Assembly (NCBI GenBank): GCA_014762495.1
Contig: JABURT010000081.1
Span: forward strand, 1-32,518
Length of the DNA: 32,518 nt
Direction: 5' to 3'
Source: Gammaproteobacteria bacterium
GTDB taxonomy: Bacteria; Pseudomonadota; Gammaproteobacteria; Thiohalospirales; Thiohalospiraceae
The translations under genes and the position numbers were made by a program. This document shows, one piece after another, positions 8,549-22,993 of this stretch (its first letter is position 1; each line of letters opens with the position of its first letter). The notes under the pieces were generated by a model. The model was not told the origin of the DNA. It saw only the letters and a program-made list of their open reading frames with translations, and did not search any database.

Positions 8549-8629
8549 ATGAAACGAGGGACCTTCACTATACTATTAGTATTAGCGAATCATATCCTCA
8601 GAATCAGTCGGTTAGGGAGGTTGCTTTGA
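8513..8629 (+). CDS. Small 38-codon ORF upstream of and overlapping cheY; possible leader peptide
   Basis: ATG at 8513 has GGGGAG (8501-8506) six bases upstream, one of the better ribosome-binding sites in the window. The frame runs 38 codons and its TGA (8627-8629) overlaps the TTG start of cheY (8626-8628), the geometry of translational coupling. The peptide is basic (about seven Arg/Lys) with a hydrophobic middle ([13 protein letters not shown]) and no family I recognise. The ribosome-binding site can be sequestered by a hairpin or pseudoknot (8502-8548). It may be a real small protein, a leader peptide tuning cheY translation, or chance. Codon use includes several rare-type codons (AGA, AGG, CTA, ATA), which argues for caution. 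Confidence 0.35.
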
Positions 8630-9012
8630 ATAAAGACATGAAAATCCTCATTGTGGATGATTTTTCGACAATGCGGAGAATAATCAAGAACTTGCTGCGT
8701 GATCTCGGCTTCAACAATACGGAAGAGGCGGATGACGGTACTACCGCTTTGCCCATGTTGAAAAAGGGCGGCTTCGACTTTTTGATCACGGACTGGAACA
8801 TGCCAGGTATGCCCGGTATCGAACTGCTCAAGGCCGTTCGTTCGGATCCTGGTCTGGCCAATTTGCCTGTGCTCATGGTCACCGCGGAGCAGAAGCGTGA
8901 GCAGATTATCGAGGCCGCGGAAGCGGGCGTTAATGGGTACGTAGTCAAGCCGTTCACGGCTCAGGTCTTGAAAGAGAAAATCGATAAAATCTTCGAGCGC
9001 GTCGGCGGCTAA
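8626..9012 (+). CDS. cheY: CheY, chemotaxis response regulator
   Basis: A single receiver domain of 128 residues. The acidic pocket D11-D12, phosphorylation site D56 (LITDWNMPG), T86 and K108 (VVKPFT) are all present. CheY-P binds FliM at the switch and changes rotation; CheA phosphorylates it and CheZ removes the phosphate, and both are encoded next. The TTG start is preferred because AGGGAGG lies five bases before it; the internal ATG (8638), where many CheY proteins start, would be 17 bases away. The TTG overlaps the stop of a 38-codon ORF, and a probable sigma-28 promoter lies at 8377-8403. Confidence 0.97.
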
Positions 9013-9046: not shown

Positions 9047-9787
9047 ATGACCGCAGACAATGTCCTGGGTGACGAAGTTCTTGCCCTTGCAAAAAGTCTG
9101 GTTGAAAAACTGGAGGCGGGTGCCACTGAGGATGCACACGCTTTGCTCGATGAACTCACGAAAGTGCGTGAGAGCCTTTTGTATCAGGAAATTGGTAAAT
9201 TGACACGGGAACTGCACAACTCCCTTAACAGCTTCCACGTCGATACCCATATCACTGCCCTGGCAGAAAAGGACATCCCGGATGCTCGCGAGCGCCTGCG
9301 TTATGTTGTCTCCATGACCGACGAGGCTGCCAACCGTACCCTGACTGCGGTAGAAGAATCGATCCCTCTCTGTGATGAAATTGACGGTCGGGTGACCGAG
9401 ATAAACGAGGCCTGGGCGCGCTTGTTGCGCCGTGAAATGACGGCTGAAGAATTTAGGCAATTGAGCAAGACACTGACGGACTACCTGAGTCTGTCCACTT
9501 ACGATATCGGTAATATCAAGGGCAAACTGAACGACGTCTTAATGGCCCAGGATTTCCAGGATCTTACCGGTCAGATTATTCATCGAGTTATCGATCTGGT
9601 TGAGGACGTTGAGAATAATCTCGTCGGCCTGATCAAAGTCGCCGGGCAGAAAGTGGATGCCCCCAGTTACAAGAGTGAAAAGGCCGATACAACGCCTACA
9701 GGTCCTGCCGTGCCTGGAATCGATGAGAGCAGCAGGGTTTCCGGTCAGGATGAGGTTGACGACCTTTTGTCCAGTCTAGGGTTTTAG
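9047..9787 (+). CDS. cheZ: CheZ, CheY-P phosphatase
   Basis: 246 residues, largely helical. The catalytic region LMAQDFQDLTGQIIHRVIDLVEDVE (about residues 165-189) contains the acidic residue and catalytic glutamine of the known CheZ active site (DxxxxxQ). A flexible linker ends in the CheY-binding peptide DEVDDLLSSLGF at the extreme C-terminus, nearly identical in pattern to E. coli CheZ. It dephosphorylates CheY-P in the cytoplasm. AGGGAG precedes the ATG. It lies 34 bp after cheY and 15 bp before cheA. Confidence 0.96.
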   Translation: MTADNVLGDEVLALAKSLVEKLEAGATEDAHALLDELTKVRESLLYQEIGKLTRELHNSLNSFHVDTHITALAEKDIPDARERLRYVVSMTDEAANRTLTAVEESIPLCDEIDGRVTEINEAWARLLRREMTAEEFRQLSKTLTDYLSLSTYDIGNIKGKLNDVLMAQDFQDLTGQIIHRVIDLVEDVENNLVGLIKVAGQKVDAPSYKSEKADTTPTGPAVPGIDESSRVSGQDEVDDLLSSLGF

Positions 9788-9802: not shown

Positions 9803-12073
9803 ATGTCTTTCGATGCAGATGAAGAAATCCTTCAAGACTTCCTGGTTGAGGCAGGGGAAATCCTTGAACAGCTCAATGAACAGCTGGTGGAATTGGAGCA
9901 AAGCCCCAATGACAAGGACCTGCTTAATGCAGTATTCCGAGGCTTTCACACCATTAAGGGGGGAGCCAGCTTCCTTGGCCTGACCCCTCTGGTCGAAGTC
10001 TGTCACCGCGCGGAAGATGTCTTCAATATGCTGCGCAATGGTGAAATTGAAGTCACCTCTCAGATCATGGATGTGATCCTGCCGGTACTGGATACCCTGA
10101 ATGCGATGTTCGACAGCATTCGCGCCGGCCAAATGCCAGAGAGCGCGGAACCACAGCTGTTGCGTGACCTGGAAGCAATCATCAATGGCGATCCGATTGC
10201 CGCCACTGCCGAGCCCAGCCCAGCGGCCGCAGATACCAGCGCACCCGCGCCATCGTCCGAGGCCCAAGCAGAGCCGGAAAAAGTACCTGAACCGCCGGCC
10301 CCTGTGGCAACGCCCCCCGCTACCGGTGAATCCAGCGGCGAAGGGGATATTACCGATGATGAATTCGAGGCATTGCTCAACGCCCTCGATTCAAACGCTA
10401 ACGAGGCAGCACCCGCCCAAGCTTCGGCCAGCGATAGTCAGGCCGAATCGGCCAAGAAAGAGAGCGCGAGCACACCAGACGAGATTTCCGAAGACGAATT
10501 CGAAGCCCTGCTCGACGAATTGCACGGCAAAGGCCAGGCACCCGTTGGTCCTTCGGACGATGCCGGCACCGAAGCGAAACCCGCTGAAGCCGAGGCTGCG
10601 AGTCAGCCAGCGGGTGCAAATACCGATGAGATCAGCGAGGACGAGTTTGAGGCCCTTCTGGACCAGTTGCATGGCAAGGGCCAGGCCCCAGGAGACGTCG
10701 AGCCAACATCACAGCCTGCAGCCGCGTCCAAGCCAGCTGAGACGGCCAAGCCCGAACCCGAGACCCGTAAAGAAGAACCCACCCCGGCCAAGCCTGAAGC
10801 CGCTAAACCGGCCCCGGCCGCAGCGGCTAAGCCCAAACCAGAGGCCACGGTACAGGCAGAGACTACAGTGCGAGTCGATACCAAGCGCCTGGACGACATC
10901 ATGAACATGGTAGGCGAACTGGTGCTGGTACGTAACAGACTGGTGAACCTTGAGGGTGCGGTCGAGAATGATGAACTGACCACAGCCGTCAGTAATCTGG
11001 ATGTCGTCACCGCAGATCTGCAAACCTCGGTCATGAAGACACGCATGCAGCCCATCAAGAAGGTCTTCGGCCGTTTCCCACGAGTGGTAAGAGACCTTGC
11101 TCGTAGCCTGCAAAAAGAGGTTGCGCTGGAAATGGTGGGCGAAGATACCGACCTGGACAAAAACCTGGTAGAGGCCCTGGCCGATCCGCTGGTTCACCTG
11201 GTGCGCAATGCCGTAGACCATGGCGTTGAAATGCCCGACGTCCGTGAGGCTGCCGGAAAACCGCGCAAGGGTACGGTCATTCTCTCCGCCGAACAGGAAG
11301 GGGATCATATTCTCCTTTCCATTGAGGATGACGGCGGTGGAATGGACCCCGATATCCTACGTCGCAAGGCCGTGGAAAAGGGCATTATGGACAGTGAGGT
11401 CGCGGCACGTCTTGATGACAAGGAGGCGTTCAGCCTGATCTTCGCTCCGGGCTTTTCCACCAAGAGTGAAATCTCCGATATCTCGGGACGGGGTGTGGGC
11501 ATGGATGTGGTGAAAACCCGCATCACCCAGCTCAATGGCAGTATAGAGATCGACTCGGTCAAGGGCGAGGGGACCCGTCTCTCCATCAAGGTGCCACTGA
11601 CGCTGGCGATCATACCGACCCTGATGGTTATGTTGGGTCAACAAACCTTTGCCCTGCCGCTGGTGAATGTGAATGAGATCTTCAATCTGGATTTGAATCA
11701 CACCAATATTATCGATGGCCAACTCGTTGTGATGGTCCGTGAGGCTCCCTTACCGCTATTCTATCTAAATAAATGGCTGGTCAGTGAAGATCCAATATTG
11801 ACCGAGATGCCTGATGTAGAAGGTGATACCAAAACGCGCGGTAAGAAGATGGAGAGCGAATCACACGTGGTCGTGGTGCATATTGGCACCCAGAAAGTCG
11901 GTTTCGTGGTGGATCAGTTGATTGGTCAGGAAGAGGTCGTTATCAAGCCTCTGGGTGCACTGCTGCACGATGTTCAAGGCCTCGCCGGTGCTACCATCAC
12001 GGGTGACGGCAAGATCGCATTAATACTGGATGTCCCCAGCTTGCTGAAACGCTATGCCAGAAAATTGCGATAG
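9803..12073 (+). CDS. cheA: CheA, chemotaxis histidine kinase with repeated linker motif
   Basis: 756 residues. P1 (HPt) spans about 1-130 with phospho-acceptor H49 (FHTIKGG). Residues 131-350 form an Ala/Pro/Glu-rich linker carrying three copies of a DEFEALL motif (182-198, 226-247, 275-296) and no evident folded P2. P3 dimerisation (about 352-415) contains TVRVDTKRLDDIMNMVGELV. The P4 kinase domain has the N box HLVRNAVDHG (465-474), DDGGGMD (509-515) and GRGVGMD (562-568). The CheW-like P5 is at about 600-745. It phosphorylates CheY and CheB in receptor arrays. The start follows cheZ by 15 bp with a weak ribosome-binding site. Confidence 0.98.
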   Translation: MSFDADEEILQDFLVEAGEILEQLNEQLVELEQSPNDKDLLNAVFRGFHTIKGGASFLGLTPLVEVCHRAEDVFNMLRNGEIEVTSQIMDVILPVLDTLNAMFDSIRAGQMPESAEPQLLRDLEAIINGDPIAATAEPSPAAADTSAPAPSSEAQAEPEKVPEPPAPVATPPATGESSGEGDITDDEFEALLNALDSNANEAAPAQASASDSQAESAKKESASTPDEISEDEFEALLDELHGKGQAPVGPSDDAGTEAKPAEAEAASQPAGANTDEISEDEFEALLDQLHGKGQAPGDVEPTSQPAAASKPAETAKPEPETRKEEPTPAKPEAAKPAPAAAAKPKPEATVQAETTVRVDTKRLDDIMNMVGELVLVRNRLVNLEGAVENDELTTAVSNLDVVTADLQTSVMKTRMQPIKKVFGRFPRVVRDLARSLQKEVALEMVGEDTDLDKNLVEALADPLVHLVRNAVDHGVEMPDVREAAGKPRKGTVILSAEQEGDHILLSIEDDGGGMDPDILRRKAVEKGIMDSEVAARLDDKEAFSLIFAPGFSTKSEISDISGRGVGMDVVKTRITQLNGSIEIDSVKGEGTRLSIKVPLTLAIIPTLMVMLGQQTFALPLVNVNEIFNLDLNHTNIIDGQLVVMVREAPLPLFYLNKWLVSEDPILTEMPDVEGDTKTRGKKMESESHVVVVHIGTQKVGFVVDQLIGQEEVVIKPLGALLHDVQGLAGATITGDGKIALILDVPSLLKRYARKLR
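10346..10690 (+). repeat. Three copies of a DEFEALL motif in the CheA linker, resembling CheY-binding peptides
   Basis: Copies encode residues 182-198 (DITDDEFEALLNALDSN), 226-247 and 275-296 (the latter two beginning DEISEDEFEALLD). Copies 2 and 3 are 22 codons long and differ at one amino acid (E to Q), yet 13 codons differ synonymously and only 8 are identical. The duplication is therefore old and held by selection on the peptide. The motif resembles the CheY-binding N-terminus of FliM (LSQ-EIDALL) and the CheZ tail (DEVDDLLSSLGF). A role in tethering CheY is inference. Confidence 0.8.
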
Positions 12074-14991: not shown

Positions 14992-15801
14992 GTGAAGGTT
15001 TGGGCCGTGGCAAATCAAAAAGGCGGAGTGGGCAAGACCACCACGGTGGTGACCCTGGCCGGCCTGCTGGCCTCGCATGGTCAGCGCACCCTGATGGTGG
15101 ATATGGACCCCCACGGTTCCCTGAGCGCCTATTTTGGCCATGATCCTGATAGCGTCAGTCACAGTGTCTACAGCCTGTTTCAGGCGGTCAGTTCCAAGCA
15201 GGACATCCATCCCGAACAGGTGATTCGCCCCACCGCCTACGACAACCTGAGCCTGATGCCCGCGTCCACTGCCCTGGCCACCCTTGATCGGCAGTTGGGC
15301 ACCCATGAGGGCATGGGACTGGTCATCAAGAAATCGCTTGAGACGGTCTCAGAACGCTATGACCACGTGATTATCGATTGCCCGCCCGTACTTGGGGTTT
15401 TGATGGTAAACGCCCTGGCGGCCTGTGAGCGGCTGCTGGTGCCGGTACAAACCGAGTTCCTGGCGGAAAAGGGCCTGGAGCGCATGATGCACACCCTCTC
15501 CATGATTCAGAAAGCAAGCCAGAAACCGATGCCCTATCTCATCGTGCCCACCCTGTTCGACAAGCGTACCAAGGCCGCCAAGGAGAGCCTGGAGGTCTTG
15601 CGCGACAATTACGGGCTCGATATTTGGGACTCGGTGATCCCGGTGGATACCCAGATCCGCGAAGCGAGCAAGAAAGGGATCCCGCTTTCGCATCTCAACC
15701 CGCGGGCACGTGGGGCGGTCGCCTACGAGGCCTTGCTGAAAACCCTGCTCGGCAACGAGACCAAACAGGGCGATGATGAGCAATCGGCGGTGCATTACTG
15801 A
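14992..15801 (+). CDS. ParA-like ATPase of the chemotaxis cluster (ParC-like)
   Basis: 269 residues from a GTG start with GGGGAG six bases upstream. The deviant Walker A KGGVGKTT is at residues 10-17 (both lysines present), DMDPHGSLSAYFG follows as Walker A', and Walker B is HVIIDCPPVLGVL. This is a ParA/Soj-family ATPase, but it sits between stator and CheW-like genes without a ParB partner. In Vibrio the equivalent ParC localises chemotaxis arrays to the pole through ParP, and the next gene here is ParP-like. The gene overlaps it by one base (TGATG). The role is inferred from context. Confidence 0.88.
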   Translation: MKVWAVANQKGGVGKTTTVVTLAGLLASHGQRTLMVDMDPHGSLSAYFGHDPDSVSHSVYSLFQAVSSKQDIHPEQVIRPTAYDNLSLMPASTALATLDRQLGTHEGMGLVIKKSLETVSERYDHVIIDCPPVLGVLMVNALAACERLLVPVQTEFLAEKGLERMMHTLSMIQKASQKPMPYLIVPTLFDKRTKAAKESLEVLRDNYGLDIWDSVIPVDTQIREASKKGIPLSHLNPRARGAVAYEALLKTLLGNETKQGDDEQSAVHY

Positions 15802-16598
15802 TGGCAGATAAGGGCAAACAGCCAGATACCCTGGTCGATGAAAAGCAGGCGCTGGGGATCTATCTCGAGTCTTTGTTAAGGGATGTTCCCGAGGCCGACG
15901 AAGAGCTTGTACCGGTCGAAACCCCGGTCGAGCCTCCGGCGGCGCCTGCCATCGATGAGCCGGTCGTGGAGGTCGAGACACCGGCGCCGGCCCGTGTGCC
16001 GGAACCCGAGCCGCAGGTGGCGCCTGCCGCGGTCGAGCCCGCACCGGCCCCTGTCGTTGAGCCGGAACCGGCCCCACCTATAGCGGAGCCTGTTTCCCAG
16101 TCGCAGGAGCCCAGTCCCTGGGAAGGTATCCCGGAATGGGGGGAAGAGCCATTCCAGGCACTGCTGTTCAAGCTATCCGGCCTGACCATGGCCATTCCCC
16201 TCATCGAACTGGATGGGATCCTCGAATGGCCCGATAGTCTGACGCCCTTGCCGAATCGCTCGGCCTGGTATCTAGGTCTGCTCGACAATCGAGGCAAGAC
16301 CCTGCCTGTGATCGAACTGGCACAACTGGTGATACCGCCCAAAATACGCAACAAACATGCGAATGAAGGCGGGGCCTCATTGAGCCGTATCATCCTGATT
16401 GGGGACGGCCGCTGGGGCGTAGCCTGCGACAGTGTGTCGGAGGTGATCACCCTCAATCCCGACGAGGTGCGCTGGCGCTCATCCCGCAGTCGTCGTCAGT
16501 GGCTGGCGGGGACGGTGGTGGACCATATGTGTGCACTGCTCGATGCCCAGGGCCTGGTACATCTGCTCAGCACCGGCCAGGAAGTCGAGGCTCAGTAA
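15801..16598 (+). CDS. CheW-like adaptor with proline-rich N-terminus (ParP-like)
   Basis: 265 residues. A short amphipathic N-terminal helix (KQALGIYLESLLRDVPE) is followed by an Ala/Pro/Glu/Val-rich disordered region (about 30-110). The C-terminal CheW-like domain (about 112-262) contains FQALLFKLSGLTMAIPLIELDGI and WYLGLLDNRGKTLPVIEL. In Vibrio, ParP has this layout: its N-terminal part binds the ParA-like ParC and its CheW-like AIF domain inserts into arrays and binds CheA. Overlap with the ParA-like gene suggests a coupled pair. I infer a ParP role; sequence alone cannot exclude another CheW-type scaffold. Confidence 0.85.
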   Translation: MADKGKQPDTLVDEKQALGIYLESLLRDVPEADEELVPVETPVEPPAAPAIDEPVVEVETPAPARVPEPEPQVAPAAVEPAPAPVVEPEPAPPIAEPVSQSQEPSPWEGIPEWGEEPFQALLFKLSGLTMAIPLIELDGILEWPDSLTPLPNRSAWYLGLLDNRGKTLPVIELAQLVIPPKIRNKHANEGGASLSRIILIGDGRWGVACDSVSEVITLNPDEVRWRSSRSRRQWLAGTVVDHMCALLDAQGLVHLLSTGQEVEAQ

Positions 16599-16692: not shown

Positions 16693-17178
16693 ATGATGGA
16701 AAATCATGAAGACGTAAGTTTCGACGAAGGCACCGATACCCAGTGGGTGACTTTCTTCCTTGCGGATGAGAAATACGGTGTGCCCGTGGCTCAGGTCAGG
16801 GAGGTATTACGTTATTCGGAGATTACACCGGTACCCGGTGCTCCCGACTACGTAATAGGTATTATTAACCTGCGCGGCAACGTGGTGACCGTGCTCGATA
16901 CGCGCAAGCGTTTCGCACTGCCACAGGTAGAGGTGGACGATTCGACTCGAGTGGTGATCATCGAAGTGGAAGACCAGGTAGTCGGTATCCTCGTGGACCA
17001 GGTCTCCGAGGTCATGCGACTGAACACCGAAGAGATAGAAACGGCGCCCAATGTCGGCAATGACGAGAGCTCCAAATACATCCAGGGCGTGGCCAGCCGT
17101 GATGGCAACCTGCTGATCCTGGTCGATCTGCACAAGCTGCTCAGCGATGAGGAGTGGGCGGAGATGGCGAACCTCTAG
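16693..17178 (+). CDS. cheW: CheW, chemoreceptor-kinase coupling protein
   Basis: 161 residues forming one CheW domain with the usual features: WVTFFLADEKYGVPVAQVREVLRY, PGAPDYVIGIINLRGNVVTVLDTRKRF, VVIIEVEDQVVGILVDQVSEV and IQGVASRDGNLLILVDLHKLL. It links chemoreceptors to the CheA P5 domain in the cytoplasmic array. Two adjacent ATGs are possible (16693 and 16696); GAGGCGAG precedes the first. A candidate sigma-28 promoter lies about 60 bp upstream. The DUF2802 gene follows two bases after the stop. Confidence 0.97.
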   Translation: MMENHEDVSFDEGTDTQWVTFFLADEKYGVPVAQVREVLRYSEITPVPGAPDYVIGIINLRGNVVTVLDTRKRFALPQVEVDDSTRVVIIEVEDQVVGILVDQVSEVMRLNTEEIETAPNVGNDESSKYIQGVASRDGNLLILVDLHKLLSDEEWAEMANL

Positions 17179-17698: not shown

Positions 17699-17986
17699 CT
17701 ATTCTTCCTGCGGTGGCGCCGCCTTGCCGCTTACCATATAGGCGAAGGCGAGGACCTCCGCCACCGCGACATAGAGATTGGACGGGATCTCGGTGCCCAG
17801 GTCGAGCTGCGCCAGCAGGGTGACGAGATCGGGGTCTTCACGTAAGGGGATGCCATGCTCATCGGCCAATGCCAGGATCTTCTCGGCCACCTCGCCCTTG
17901 CCCTTGGCCGAGATTCGTGGGGCCTGTTTGCCGTCATATTCCAGCGCAACCGCGGTCGGCAACTTGTCCTGCTCCTGTTCGCTCAT
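17699..17986 (-). CDS. Stand-alone FlhB C-terminal-domain protein (EscU/YscU switch family, FhlB-like)
   Basis: 95 residues with no membrane segment. The protein aligns with the part of FlhB that follows the autocleavage site: TAVALEYDG matches YAIALKYD of the full FlhB here (after NPTH), and IPSNLYVAVAEVLAFAYMVSGK matches IPVGLFQAVAQVLAYIFHLKE. The NPTH motif is absent, so it is already equivalent to the small cleavage product. Small proteins of this kind (FhlB, YlqH) are known next to fliK; a role in substrate switching is plausible but not well established. Its ATG overlaps the fliK stop by four bases, indicating translational coupling. Confidence 0.9.
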   Translation of the reverse strand: MSEQEQDKLPTAVALEYDGKQAPRISAKGKGEVAEKILALADEHGIPLREDPDLVTLLAQLDLGTEIPSNLYVAVAEVLAFAYMVSGKAAPPQEE

Positions 17987-19470
17987 GCCTCGACGTCCAC
18001 CAGTCCCTTACCTGAGAAAGGTTTTTGCGGTTCGGCGCGTGCGGGTATGCCTTGCTGGCACCCCATGCGACTGACATGCAGACCGGCCTCGATCATGCTT
18101 TGCTTGAGTTGAGAGATATTGCGCTGAAACAGGGCCACGGTGTCGGCCTCGTCGGCCCAGAGATTAATGCCCACCTGCTTTTCGCCCACCAGGGTCAGGC
18201 CGGCGCGTACCGCGCCCAGTTCTTTTAAGTCAAACGAAAGCGAGACCGTCCAGATCGCGCGCTTGTCTTTGCCATCGCCCTCGCGGTCACGCTGTATCTC
18301 GAGTTGCAGGGTATCGACCCGGCCATCGCTTTGGCGCATCGGTACTTCCAGTAACCAGCTCGGGCGTTGTTGATTGTCGCTTTGCTGGATGCTGCTGAGC
18401 TGATTGAACTGGATGCGTGCAAGCCCCGACTCCAGTTGTTGCGTCGTCTCGACGCCGCTTCGCCCGAGCGATGTGGGCTGGGTCGCGGCGGTACCGGTCT
18501 GGGTATTGATCGTGCCTGTTTGAGGGCGCGCGGCGGTGGTATCGGCGGTCTGCCGGCTTGCGTTCTCTACACCCGTCTGTGGTGTTGTGACGATACGCTG
18601 GGCCTGTGTATTGGCTTGAGGCGCCTGACTTGATGCTTGTGCAGACTGACCGCTTCCCGAAGCGGGCGGCGGTGGGGCCGTGGACTTGCCCTGTGCAGGA
18701 GGGTTGGCGGCTTGTTGGGCCGTCGACTGAGCCTGAGGTGTCTGGCCCTGTCCCTGCGCGGCGCGATCCGTCGAGGCCGGATTGCTTTGTTGGGGCAAAT
18801 TACGAATTGCTTGCAGTAGGCGTAGCAGGCCGGCCTTGAGGTCTCGGCCAAGCTGGGCCTGTGCCTCGGGTGAGGTGCTGCCCTGTTGCGAGAGCTGTCG
18901 CAGTCGGGATTCCAGGAAGCTACCGGAATCTTCCACCGCCTGTTTAACCGCGGATCCGGTACGTAGTTGCTGTAATTGTGGAAGCTGGTCGAGGATCTGG
19001 CGGCTCAGGGCCCGCAGTTGTTGTGCATTCTCACCATTGGCCGAGTCTGCCAATTGTGTCAGCGCACGCAGGACCTGGGGCAGGGGTTGTTGCTGGGGTA
19101 GCGACTCACGCGCGCCACGCGAGATCACTTCGCCTCGATTGGCGGCGGGATTGAGGACTCGCAGGAGGGGTTGGTCACCGGCGCGGACCACTTCCAGTTG
19201 TAGGGTCTGGCCCGCGCGCATGGCTTGGTTGGCCTGGGCTTGTCCTTGTGCCTGGGCCTGTACCCGATGCCCGTTGATCTCCAGGGTGGGAGTCCCTTGT
19301 CGATCAACGCTGACCACCATGGCCTTGAGTAACTGGCCGACCTGCCAGCCCGCCCGCATGCGTGACGAACCGGCATTATTGAGATTGAGCAGGGCGTTGT
19401 TGTCGGGGCCTTTTACATACATAGGCTGGATGCGTCCACCGAAGGTTTCTGGAAAAGTCGATAAAGCCAT
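17983..19470 (-). CDS. fliK: FliK, flagellar hook-length control protein
   Basis: About 495 residues from ATG at 19470 (two GTG codons just upstream, at 19479 and 19476, are alternatives). The middle (about 200-340) is a low-complexity Gln/Ala/Pro/Ser/Thr-rich region as in FliK molecular rulers. The C-terminal hook domain (about 375-480) includes WLLEVPMRQSDGRVDTLQLEI, IWTVSLSFDLKELGAVRAGL and GINLWADEADTVALFQRNI. FliK is exported during hook growth and triggers FlhB switching. It is transcribed against the che operon, from a candidate sigma-28 promoter, together with the FlhB-like gene. The middle region is too variable for confident homology, so the call rests on the C-terminus and context. 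Confidence 0.88.
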   Translation of the reverse strand: MALSTFPETFGGRIQPMYVKGPDNNALLNLNNAGSSRMRAGWQVGQLLKAMVVSVDRQGTPTLEINGHRVQAQAQGQAQANQAMRAGQTLQLEVVRAGDQPLLRVLNPAANRGEVISRGARESLPQQQPLPQVLRALTQLADSANGENAQQLRALSRQILDQLPQLQQLRTGSAVKQAVEDSGSFLESRLRQLSQQGSTSPEAQAQLGRDLKAGLLRLLQAIRNLPQQSNPASTDRAAQGQGQTPQAQSTAQQAANPPAQGKSTAPPPPASGSGQSAQASSQAPQANTQAQRIVTTPQTGVENASRQTADTTAARPQTGTINTQTGTAATQPTSLGRSGVETTQQLESGLARIQFNQLSSIQQSDNQQRPSWLLEVPMRQSDGRVDTLQLEIQRDREGDGKDKRAIWTVSLSFDLKELGAVRAGLTLVGEKQVGINLWADEADTVALFQRNISQLKQSMIEAGLHVSRMGCQQGIPARAEPQKPFSGKGLVDVEA

Positions 19471-19505
19471 TGACACCACGCTGGATACATGGCTACTTAT
19501 CCAAT

Positions 19506-20437: not shown

Positions 20438-21019
20438 TCATTCGGTTTCGCTTACCGGCATGCCGAAGGACTCGGTGGTATATCGTTCAATCTCCATTGT
20501 GTCGGACCAGTAATCGGCCGCCAGACCGGCCTTGCGTTTGAGATGGCTAAGAAACTCCTCGGGTTTGCTTAACTGACCCCAGACCGTAGGTAGGAAGGTC
20601 GCGCGTCTTAGACCGTCTTTGATGATCAAGCCATCAATGCCGGGTCGCAGCTGGTCTAATAATTCCCTCTCATTGTTCACATATATAAGCTCCGGTAGCG
20701 AGAGCACGGATAACTCCAGGTCCAGCTCGGGTAATTCAATGTCCTCGAGGGCAGGAAAGCGTGGGTCGGAAAAGGCCGCTGCATAGGCATTGCTCGACAC
20801 ATCTTCTATCAGGGGGCGTTCGGGTAGCAGGCTGCCAATACAACCTCGCAGCTGGTGATGACGTTGAAGCGTCACGAAGCTTGCCCTGTGTTGCCGCAGA
20901 GACTCGGGGGTCGTGGTCAAATCCACGGGCATGGGCTTACCGTGTTGCAACCCGTATCGAATCGATGACAGTGCCGTTTGCAGCAGGAGCAGGCGTTCAC
21001 TTTGCGAGTAGTCACTCAT
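20438..21019 (-). CDS. amrA: AmmeMemoRadiSam system protein A (AMMECR1-like)
   Basis: 193 residues matching the AMMECR1 fold family, including the hallmark LRGCIGS (residues 57-63) followed by PERPLIEDVSSNAYAAAFSDPRF. The C-terminal half includes GIDGLIIKDGLRRATFLPTVW, also typical. Human AMMECR1 is a homologue of unknown biochemical role; in bacteria and archaea the gene travels with Memo-like and radical-SAM genes. It overlaps the upstream Memo-like gene by four bases, so it is the second gene of a two-gene unit. Its start is the ATG in the overlap. Confidence 0.93.
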   Translation of the reverse strand: MSDYSQSERLLLLQTALSSIRYGLQHGKPMPVDLTTTPESLRQHRASFVTLQRHHQLRGCIGSLLPERPLIEDVSSNAYAAAFSDPRFPALEDIELPELDLELSVLSLPELIYVNNERELLDQLRPGIDGLIIKDGLRRATFLPTVWGQLSKPEEFLSHLKRKAGLAADYWSDTMEIERYTTESFGMPVSETE

Positions 21020-21801
21020 TGAAATACGTAGGCGCCATAGCCGACCACACGGTCTTTTGGACCCGCCGTGTCACCGGAGTTGCGGACATCGATGGCCGTG
21101 CCGTGCAGGCCGTGTCGGCGGGAATAATAGAGCAGGCCGCGAATGGGATTGCGACCACAGGCATCGTCAAAGCCCAGGTCCTCATAGCGCAAGGCCTCAA
21201 TGGCCGACGTTGTGGCCTGATCCCGCTGGCGAGCGGTGGCATAGTCATGGTAATGACTGAGGTCCGAGCTGATGACGATTAGTGTTTCCTCCTTGCCCCA
21301 GAGCATTTCCAGCACCTGCGCCACCTCTTGCGGGGCCGCGTCGCCAACCACCATTGGGATCAGTTCGAAATCCGACAGCAAAACCTGCAGGAAAGGCAGG
21401 TGTACCTCCAGGCTGTGCTCCCGGCTGTGGGCCTCGTCCAGGATCGCCACCGCAGGCAGTTTCAAAAGGGCCTCATCCATACCGTGATCCACGAGGATCG
21501 TACCCAGAGGCGTGGCAAAGCTCTGGGCGCTACTTAGGGCCAGGCCCTGGAAGCCCACGCGATGGGAAGGTCCGAGCAGGACCACGCGCCGGATACGTTC
21601 GCGCAGGGGGGCCAATAGACGATAGGCCGAGGCCGCGACGGGACCGGAATAGACGTAACCGGCGTGGGGCACGATGAGGGCCTTGGGTGGCGGATTCTCA
21701 TTGTGAGTGTCGTGCAGATAGCCCTCGACCGTTTGCCTGAGTTCGACTGGGTCGGCGGGGTAGAACATGCCCGCCACCACGGGCTCGCGTATGCGTTGCA
21801 T
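21016..21801 (-). CDS. amrB: AmmeMemoRadiSam system protein B (Memo-like)
   Basis: 262-residue core from ATG at 21801, preceded by AGGGTGG five bases upstream; a GTG at 21810 would add three residues. Memo-family motifs are present: the N-terminus REPVVAGMFYPADP, PHAGYVYSG, LLGPSHR, EHSLEVHLPFLQ, SSDLSHYHDY and DACGRNPI. The histidines and cysteine in these motifs correspond to the proposed metal/active site related to LigB extradiol dioxygenases. Human MEMO1 is linked to iron and redox signalling; the bacterial reaction is not known. It is first gene of the unit with the AMMECR1-like gene and is divergent from the radical-SAM gene. Confidence 0.93.
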   Translation of the reverse strand: MQRIREPVVAGMFYPADPVELRQTVEGYLHDTHNENPPPKALIVPHAGYVYSGPVAASAYRLLAPLRERIRRVVLLGPSHRVGFQGLALSSAQSFATPLGTILVDHGMDEALLKLPAVAILDEAHSREHSLEVHLPFLQVLLSDFELIPMVVGDAAPQEVAQVLEMLWGKEETLIVISSDLSHYHDYATARQRDQATTSAIEALRYEDLGFDDACGRNPIRGLLYYSRRHGLHGTAIDVRNSGDTAGPKDRVVGYGAYVFQ

Positions 21802-21834
21802 GGATACCACCCTATCCTGTCTACTAGTCTATAA

Positions 21835-21861
21835 ATTATAGTTGTCATGTCTGGCTTTCAA
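21835..21861 (-). promoter_or_regulatory. Candidate sigma-70 promoter and 13-bp dyad between the Memo-like and radical-SAM genes
   Basis: On the minus strand TTGAAA (21861-21856), a 15-bp spacer and a perfect TATAAT (21840-21835), about 33 bases before the Memo-like ATG. The -10 lies in the exact dyad CTATAAATTATAG (21829-21841), which also puts TATAAA on the plus strand toward the radical-SAM gene. The spacer is shorter than ideal. Shared divergent control is possible. Confidence 0.45.
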
Positions 21862-21892
21862 GGGCTCGGGGCCGCGGCAACAGGGGCTTAAG

Positions 21893-22993
21893 ATGAGTGA
21901 TATGAAGGAATCTTTTGGTGACACCATGCCTACCCGGTATTGGCATGTGCTGGAGGATGGCCGCGTCCAGTGCGATCTCTGTCCACGTTTGTGCAAGTTG
22001 CATGAGGGGCAGCGCGGACTCTGCTTCGTTCGGGCCAATCAGAACGGCGCCATCGTCCTCACCACCTACGGTCGTTCCAGTGGATATTGCATCGACCCCA
22101 TTGAAAAAAAGCCGTTAAATCATTTCCTTCCGGGTACACCGGTGCTCTCTTTCGGCACCGCCGGCTGCAACCTGGCCTGTAAGTTTTGTCAGAATTGGGA
22201 CATCAGTAAATCACGCGAGATGGACACGCTGATGGATGATGCAAGCCCCGAGAAGATCGCCCGTGTGGCCAGGGAAATGGGCTGTCGTAGCGTTGCCTAT
22301 ACCTATAACGACCCGGTGATTTTCCATGAATATGCCATCGATGTAGCAAAGGCCTGCCGTCAGCTCGGGATCAAGAACATTGCCGTGACGGCCGGATATG
22401 TCAGTCCCGAACCGCGTGCGGAGTTCTATCGCTATATGGACGCGGCCAATATCGATCTGAAGGCCTTTACCGATGAGTTCTATTACAAGCTCACCGGGGC
22501 TCACCTGGAGCCGGTGCTGGATACGCTTAAATATATCAAGCACGAGACCCAGGTCTGGCTGGAACTGACGACATTGTTGATTCCAGGTAAGAACGACTCG
22601 GACATCGAACTGGAGCAGCTAACGCAGTGGGTCAAATCTGAACTCGGCGCCGAGGTGCCGCTGCACTTTAGCGCATTTCATCCTGACTGGAAGATGCAGG
22701 ATATCCCGGCAACGCCGACGGCGACCCTGCAGAGGGCACGTCAAATCGGCCTGAATAACGGTCTGCATTACGTCTATACCGGAAACATCCATGACAAGAC
22801 GGGGCAGAGCACCTACTGCCATCAATGCGGTCAAATCCTCATTGGCCGAGATTGGTACGAACTGTCGGAATGGAATCTGGATGGCAAGGGGTGTTGCACA
22901 CAGTGCGGGACGCGCTGCGCCGGACACTTCGAAGAGAAGCCCGGGACCTGGGGAGGCAGGCGACAACCGGTGCGTTTGCACGAACATGCATGA
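21893..22993 (+). CDS. amrS: AmmeMemoRadiSam system radical SAM enzyme
   Basis: 366 residues from ATG at 21893, supported by AGGGG six bases upstream. An N-terminal cysteine cluster CDLCPRLC (C27, C30, C34) with C44 is followed by the radical-SAM motif CNLACKFC (C92, C96, C99) ligating the 4Fe-4S cluster. The core continues as a TIM-barrel domain. The C-terminus has a rubredoxin-like zinc ribbon (CHQCG...CTQCG). This layout identifies the radical-SAM member of the AmmeMemoRadiSam triad, related to pyruvate-formate-lyase activating enzymes. The substrate is unknown. The gene is divergent from the Memo-like/AMMECR1-like unit with about 90 bp between. Confidence 0.94.
   Translation: MSDMKESFGDTMPTRYWHVLEDGRVQCDLCPRLCKLHEGQRGLCFVRANQNGAIVLTTYGRSSGYCIDPIEKKPLNHFLPGTPVLSFGTAGCNLACKFCQNWDISKSREMDTLMDDASPEKIARVAREMGCRSVAYTYNDPVIFHEYAIDVAKACRQLGIKNIAVTAGYVSPEPRAEFYRYMDAANIDLKAFTDEFYYKLTGAHLEPVLDTLKYIKHETQVWLELTTLLIPGKNDSDIELEQLTQWVKSELGAEVPLHFSAFHPDWKMQDIPATPTATLQRARQIGLNNGLHYVYTGNIHDKTGQSTYCHQCGQILIGRDWYELSEWNLDGKGCCTQCGTRCAGHFEEKPGTWGGRRQPVRLHEHA

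Follow-up and report, generated by a model that had tools for sequence, protein, structure and literature searches.

CheY docking and the linker of CheA

The P2 domain of the kinase CheA, the motor protein FliM and the phosphatase CheZ all bind the same face of CheY. P2 (PF07194, PF09078) lies between P1 and P3 and is expected to bring CheY to P1; some 70-90 residues long, it folds as a domain and is usually present as a single copy. Not every CheA has one: the parts of the survey by Berry et al. considered here (PMC10542144) describe about half of all CheAs as lacking P2 with an unstructured region between P1 and P3, which is taken to be without a docking domain. In Vibrio, the linker before P3 contains the LID, which binds the AIF domain of ParP and was reported only in CheAs that occur together with ParC/ParP (PMC5706961, PMC7534058).

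The CheA of the locus described here has, in place of a folded P2, repeats of 14-22 residues within a disordered linker, and thus a conserved, repeated motif inside the very region regarded as free of docking domains in those parts of the survey. Like P2, the repeats are positioned between P1 and P3. With the N-terminal peptide of FliM (EIDALL) they share the pattern hydrophobic-S/T-x-x-E-hydrophobic-D/E-x-LL in the same register and a helix in a flexible stretch, but they are internal, present in 2-4 copies, have F for I and an LHGKG extension, and belong to the kinase rather than the motor. The CheZ tail (VDDLLSSLGF) has the same DE-hydrophobic-D/E-x-LL-x-x-L pattern and is encoded in the same operon; unlike it, the repeats are internal, repeated, and have neither a free C-terminus nor the GF end. 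The Vibrio LID is found in the same linker and in the same ParC/ParP type of operon. The likeness is to short-peptide CheY docking of a known type rather than to a new type of system, and the motif is unreported in the open-access literature that was searched.

The chemotaxis locus

The window (the whole stretch of DNA that was analysed, 32,518 nucleotides) contains a flagellar and chemotaxis cluster that ends with cheY, cheZ, cheA, cheB, motAB-like genes, parC, parP and cheW. The features needed here are:

8626-9012, + strand: CheY, face residues kept, F6-type positions (CheY alignment)
9755-9784, + strand: C-terminal tail VDDLLSSLGF of CheZ (ORF with a CheZ family match in Pfam)
9803-12073, + strand: CheA, 756 amino acids, with P1 at residues 8-108, the repeat linker at about 130-350, P3 at 354-413, P4 at 461-600 and P5 at 607-750 (ORF list, Pfam)
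9824-10126, + strand: P1 (Hpt) domain of CheA (Pfam; AlphaFold2 helices 3-127, pLDDT >95 except at the N-terminus)
14992-15801, + strand: ParC-like ParA ATPase (Pfam), syntenic with cheA in relatives
15801-16598, + strand: ParP-like protein with an N-terminal helix, a Pro-rich linker and a CheW/AIF-like domain (Pfam)
16693-17178, + strand: CheW (Pfam)

The gene order cheY-cheZ-cheA-cheB-motAB-parC-parP-cheW, with motAB assigned by position only, and the F6-type CheY identify the CheA of the window as F6-like. The CheZ tail is present within the same operon, as the earlier note on this DNA had claimed. No FliM gene was found genome-wide in the draft genome of the window, the contig of which begins inside fliO; since the relatives have FliM, this is probably an assembly gap, and all comparisons with FliM lean on the FliM proteins of these relatives. 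Further downstream, inspection by eye suggested a small protein resembling the FlhB C-terminal domain (17699-17986, - strand), an adjoining Gln-rich FliK-like protein (17983-19479, - strand) and a trio of AMMECR1-like, MEMO1-like and radical SAM proteins of the AmmeMemoRadiSam type (20438-22993).

Three repeats in the P1-P3 linker

The linker between P1 and P3 has three copies of ITDDEFEALLxxL, starting at residues 183, 227 and 276:

10343-10408, + strand: repeat copy 1, GDITDDEFEALLNALDSNANEA (22-residue profile E 4.8e-10; AlphaFold2 helix 185-197)
10478-10543, + strand: repeat copy 2, DEISEDEFEALLDELHGKGQAP (22-residue profile E 7.4e-13; AlphaFold2 helix 230-240)
10625-10690, + strand: repeat copy 3, DEISEDEFEALLDQLHGKGQAP (22-residue profile E 2.0e-13; AlphaFold2 helix 279-289)

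Both the ORF and the profile matches confirm the three DEFEALL(D/N)xL copies that had initially been noticed by reading the sequence. The claim that copies 2 and 3 are one residue apart was recomputed and is correct: over 22 codons there is one amino-acid change (E to Q) and there are 13 synonymous codon differences, with 16 nucleotide differences in total (dN 0.06, dS saturated). Codon comparisons between copies in the relatives gave 1,623 synonymous and 1,335 non-synonymous differences, and identity in the relatives is 73% within the repeat but falls to 18% between 15 and 28 residues downstream of it. When the linkers of 112 relatives were shuffled with their composition preserved, the core was matched in 0.04%, far below the real repeats. 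A recent tandem duplication as the origin of the repeats is unsupported: copies 2 and 3 are saturated for synonymous changes and the pattern of 2-4 copies is class-wide.

Copy 1 (10343-10408) also coincides with a sub-threshold match to SHOCT (PF09851), with which it has the helix-cap pattern ITEEEFE in common, and SHOCT is matched in 59 of the 63 relatives at E up to 0.1. This match would agree with the repeats being a generic helix N-cap element, or binding a partner other than CheY and ParP, such as the receiver domains of CheB or CheV, CheW/P5 or P1/P4 of CheA. We consider such an explanation very improbable: it leaves the match to the ends of FliM and CheZ (see below) unexplained, and the SHOCT match in the CheA of the window covers only the second half of SHOCT (13 of 28 positions) and scores below the cut-off (21.0 and 24.6 bits versus 27 bits). 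Membership in the SHOCT family was rejected on its score.

Distribution and conservation of the repeats

Among 116 CheA entries, in which the CheA of the window enters three times, 57 have three strict matches, 43 have two, seven have four, seven have one and two have none; of the latter, one is a fragmentary entry that lacks the linker, and L047 has variants such as ITDSEFDALLDQIHGKG. The count over homologous CheAs that the earlier note had called for therefore gives usually two to three repeats per protein, across the class rather than in a single genome. The 279 distinct instances have the consensus I-[TS]-[DE]-[DE]-E-F-[ED]-x-L-L-D-x-L-H-G-x-G. The search pattern fixes LL and restricts the residues at D/E, F and the final L, while positions -3, +7, +10 and +11 are free; at these unconstrained positions, I is found in 270 instances, D in 267, H in 230 and G in 239, respectively.

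Within 370 Gammaproteobacteria, the repeat is present in 148 genomes and a closely related CheA in 155. In a scan of the phylum (398 genomes), all matches stronger than E 0.001 fall within Gammaproteobacteria. Genome-wide searches of 12 genomes with the 22-residue profile returned significant matches in CheA alone, with no other carriers; FliM and CheZ were not among them. In an alignment of 63 sequences, 32 of 59 linker columns inside the repeats have at least 80% identity versus 5 of 162 outside, and outside the repeats each column that reaches at least 60% is proline. In this alignment the repeats are essentially the sole conserved part of the linker besides scattered prolines, and they are a class-wide feature of F6-like CheA linkers across Gammaproteobacteria. 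Selection on the peptide, proposed from the codons of copies 2 and 3, is strongly supported by these codon differences, the conservation over 279 instances and the linker alignment.

Two che loci deserve separate mention. A complete single-contig genome (L278, G039:C1:2590000-2609500, and L279) has the order cheY-cheZ-cheA-cheB-parC-parP-cheW with intact repeats and CheZ tail and a cheB match split into two pieces; neither FliM nor FlhA was found genome-wide, so that this F6-type system is apparently without a flagellar motor. In L255 and L256, cheA directly follows cheY, no cheZ was detected in the locus and the CheA has one repeat.

The linker has no recognisable P2 domain

Pfam identifies Hpt (P1), H-kinase_dim (P3), HATPase_c (P4) and CheW (P5) in the CheA of the window, no P2 or CheY-binding family, and no P2 in 62 relatives either. 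Pfam models of P2 are described as insensitive in the parts of the survey considered here (PMC10542144), and for this reason the AlphaFold2 prediction carries weight. Predicted from residues 1-362 with an alignment of 63 sequences, the structure consists of the P1 bundle followed by a low-confidence linker with just three short helices, which are the three copies; each is a short helix inside disorder, as in CheY-docking peptides. Foldseek searches gave confident matches to P1 structures and helical bundles and no match to P2, and comparing a profile of the region with PDB sequences returned P1 entries and designed bundles, again without P2; the repeat itself had only chance matches among PDB sequences. 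Pfam, AlphaFold2 and Foldseek thus bear out the initial impression that this CheA has no clear P2, and Pfam finds none elsewhere in the protein.

Second CheAs of related genomes (L018, L019, L020, L269 and L276) have a conserved P2-like domain with weak Pfam matches to P2/CheY-binding families. None of these five has the repeat, with the P2 assignment itself being weak at sequence level. Among the CheAs compared, P2 and the repeats appear not to occur together.

Likeness to the ends of FliM and CheZ

FliM of the relatives reads LSQDEIDALLHGV, with the N-terminal start LLSQDEIDALLHGV, and the C-terminus of CheZ is SGQDEVDDLLSSLGF or a near variant. FliM and the repeat align in exact register (L-S-Q-D-E-I-D-A-L-L versus I-T-D-D-E-F-E-A-L-L). 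With a matrix made from the CheA repeats, 14 FliM N-termini, which are mutually related and hence not independent, score between 9.3 and 12.6, while the N-termini of 1,469 other ORFs reach at most 8.0; of the C-termini scoring above 5, 58 of 58 are CheZ. Restricting the test to ends presupposes that the known CheY peptides are located at the ends of proteins. When the scan is unrestricted, the FliM score of about 11 is matched by approximately the top 1-2% of other ORFs, among them a segment of FlhA. As FliM is unexceptional there, the unrestricted scan was rejected as proof of FliM likeness, and the likeness is meaningful only with the protein-end prior. The resemblance to FliM and CheZ seen by the earlier note thus holds among protein ends, but does not stand out when whole proteins are scanned.

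The CheY face and a possible docking mechanism

Nine residues, which we take to be the contact face of CheY (I95, A99, Y106, V108, F111, T112, L116, K119 and K122, E. coli numbering), are identical between the CheY of the window and that of E. coli and almost unchanged across 147 CheYs; this face would stay conserved for FliM and CheZ regardless. According to a published comparison, the move of CheY from CheA-F6 to CheA-F7 involved R92K, Q94N and V103A, as well as K117E, and positions 92, 94 and 103 are described as facing P2 (PMC7184735). The CheY of the window is in the F6 state (R92, Q94, V103, K117). That the F6 state is kept at P2-facing positions indicates that the CheY face differs between partners of P2-less and P2-bearing kinases. 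If P2 is missing from the F6 CheA, another part of the kinase should touch this face, and the repeats are the candidate. In one locus (L083), the genes cheY, cheZ and cheA share a reading frame, and reading TAG as Q joins them into a single chain; the model of this read-through chain, made with a ten-row alignment, is of low confidence (pLDDT about 50-75 for CheY and about 40 for the CheZ tail), and even the CheZ tail, a known CheY ligand that served as control, is undocked, so that the model speaks neither for nor against docking of the repeats.

We infer that the repeats could be short linear CheY-docking peptides in the disordered linker of a P2-less CheA. Each repeat would fold as an amphipathic helix of two to three turns (I-S/T-x-D-E-F-D/E-x-L-L-D-x-L) and dock on CheY, presumably at its alpha4-beta5-alpha5 face. 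With several weak copies, CheY would be more concentrated in the vicinity of P1; it would be released from the repeats once phosphorylated, and the repeats would in this way do the work of P2. ParP is possibly a second user, via some of the copies or the LHGKG tail. Whether the repeats are such multivalent CheY tethers in place of P2, perhaps shared with ParP, is in our estimate evenly balanced.

ParC, ParP and the Vibrio LID

In most genomes the repeats are found together with ParC/ParP and, as with the Vibrio LID, the repeats of the window are in the pre-P3 linker of a CheA whose operon encodes ParC and ParP. In L290, a two-chromosome genome that is probably Vibrio, three repeats are the sole conserved matter of the linker. 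Because the repeats are the sole conserved linker sequence, L290 included, there is hardly another candidate for a conserved LID, and the published LID may be these same repeats. These data fit an alternative that had been raised at the outset: as the LID of CheA, the repeats would keep CheA in polar arrays by binding ParP through its CheW-like AIF domain, and P1 would phosphorylate CheY directly, with no docking site.

The distribution of the core is difficult to reconcile with this. No ParC above the level of an ordinary ParA homologue was found in G028, G159, G009, G352, G338, G179, G327 and G267: the best ParC match has 125-155 bits, like the ParA homologue of controls, in comparison to 325-377 bits for real ParC. 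Matches to the ParP profile are absent or weak in these eight genomes, mostly at the position of cheW, and their che loci contain neither parC nor parP. Nevertheless all eight, which belong to five families and all have cheY, keep the repeat core in one to four copies, whereas the LID is reported only with ParC/ParP; in two more genomes without ParC/ParP (G016 and G031) the core is degenerate. As a full account of the repeats, the LID was consequently rejected, and we regard it as unlikely that ParP binding is their only role; in that case the likeness of the core to FliM and CheZ would be a coincidence. What stands from this alternative is that the repeats are the sole conserved linker sequence in ParC/ParP-associated CheAs, and the ParC/ParP-less f50 lineage, which has three DGDITDDEFEALLNQRD-like units with the core kept and LHGKG gone, is in line with it.

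Core and tail behave differently, which would suit a linker that serves both signalling and array positioning, CheY docking on the core IxxDEFxxLL and ParP on either a single copy or the LHGKG tail. The tail is kept in most genomes with ParC/ParP and lost in f50 and f87, both without ParC/ParP, and copy 1 is tail-less in many species (ITDDEFEALLNALDSN in the CheA of the window). Three further ParC/ParP-less lineages (f21, f2 and f164) have retained the tail, however, and we think such a division of labour rather improbable. In one ParC/ParP-less family (L267, L268 and L273), the unit is lengthened (L-x-LPEGVDPDG-[DE]-[IM]TDDEFEALLNQRD-like) and the LHGKG tail is replaced.

Implications

Returning to the repeats as CheY tethers, it is possible, if somewhat short of probable, that the F6 CheA of Gammaproteobacteria has swapped a folded CheY-docking domain for two to four peptides resembling FliM and CheZ, that kinase, phosphatase and motor compete for one face of CheY with motifs of the same kind, and that these repeats may also be recognised by ParP when the array is positioned. 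To the question of how the P2-less CheAs, reportedly about half of all, reach CheY quickly, the repeats offer a specific and mutable candidate answer. The motif is present in P2-less CheAs of well-studied groups, for example Pseudomonas and Shewanella, and bears directly on the identity of the ParP-binding LID in Vibrio CheA. If the tether function is true, the number of copies would provide a natural means of tuning how kinase, phosphatase and motor compete for CheY.
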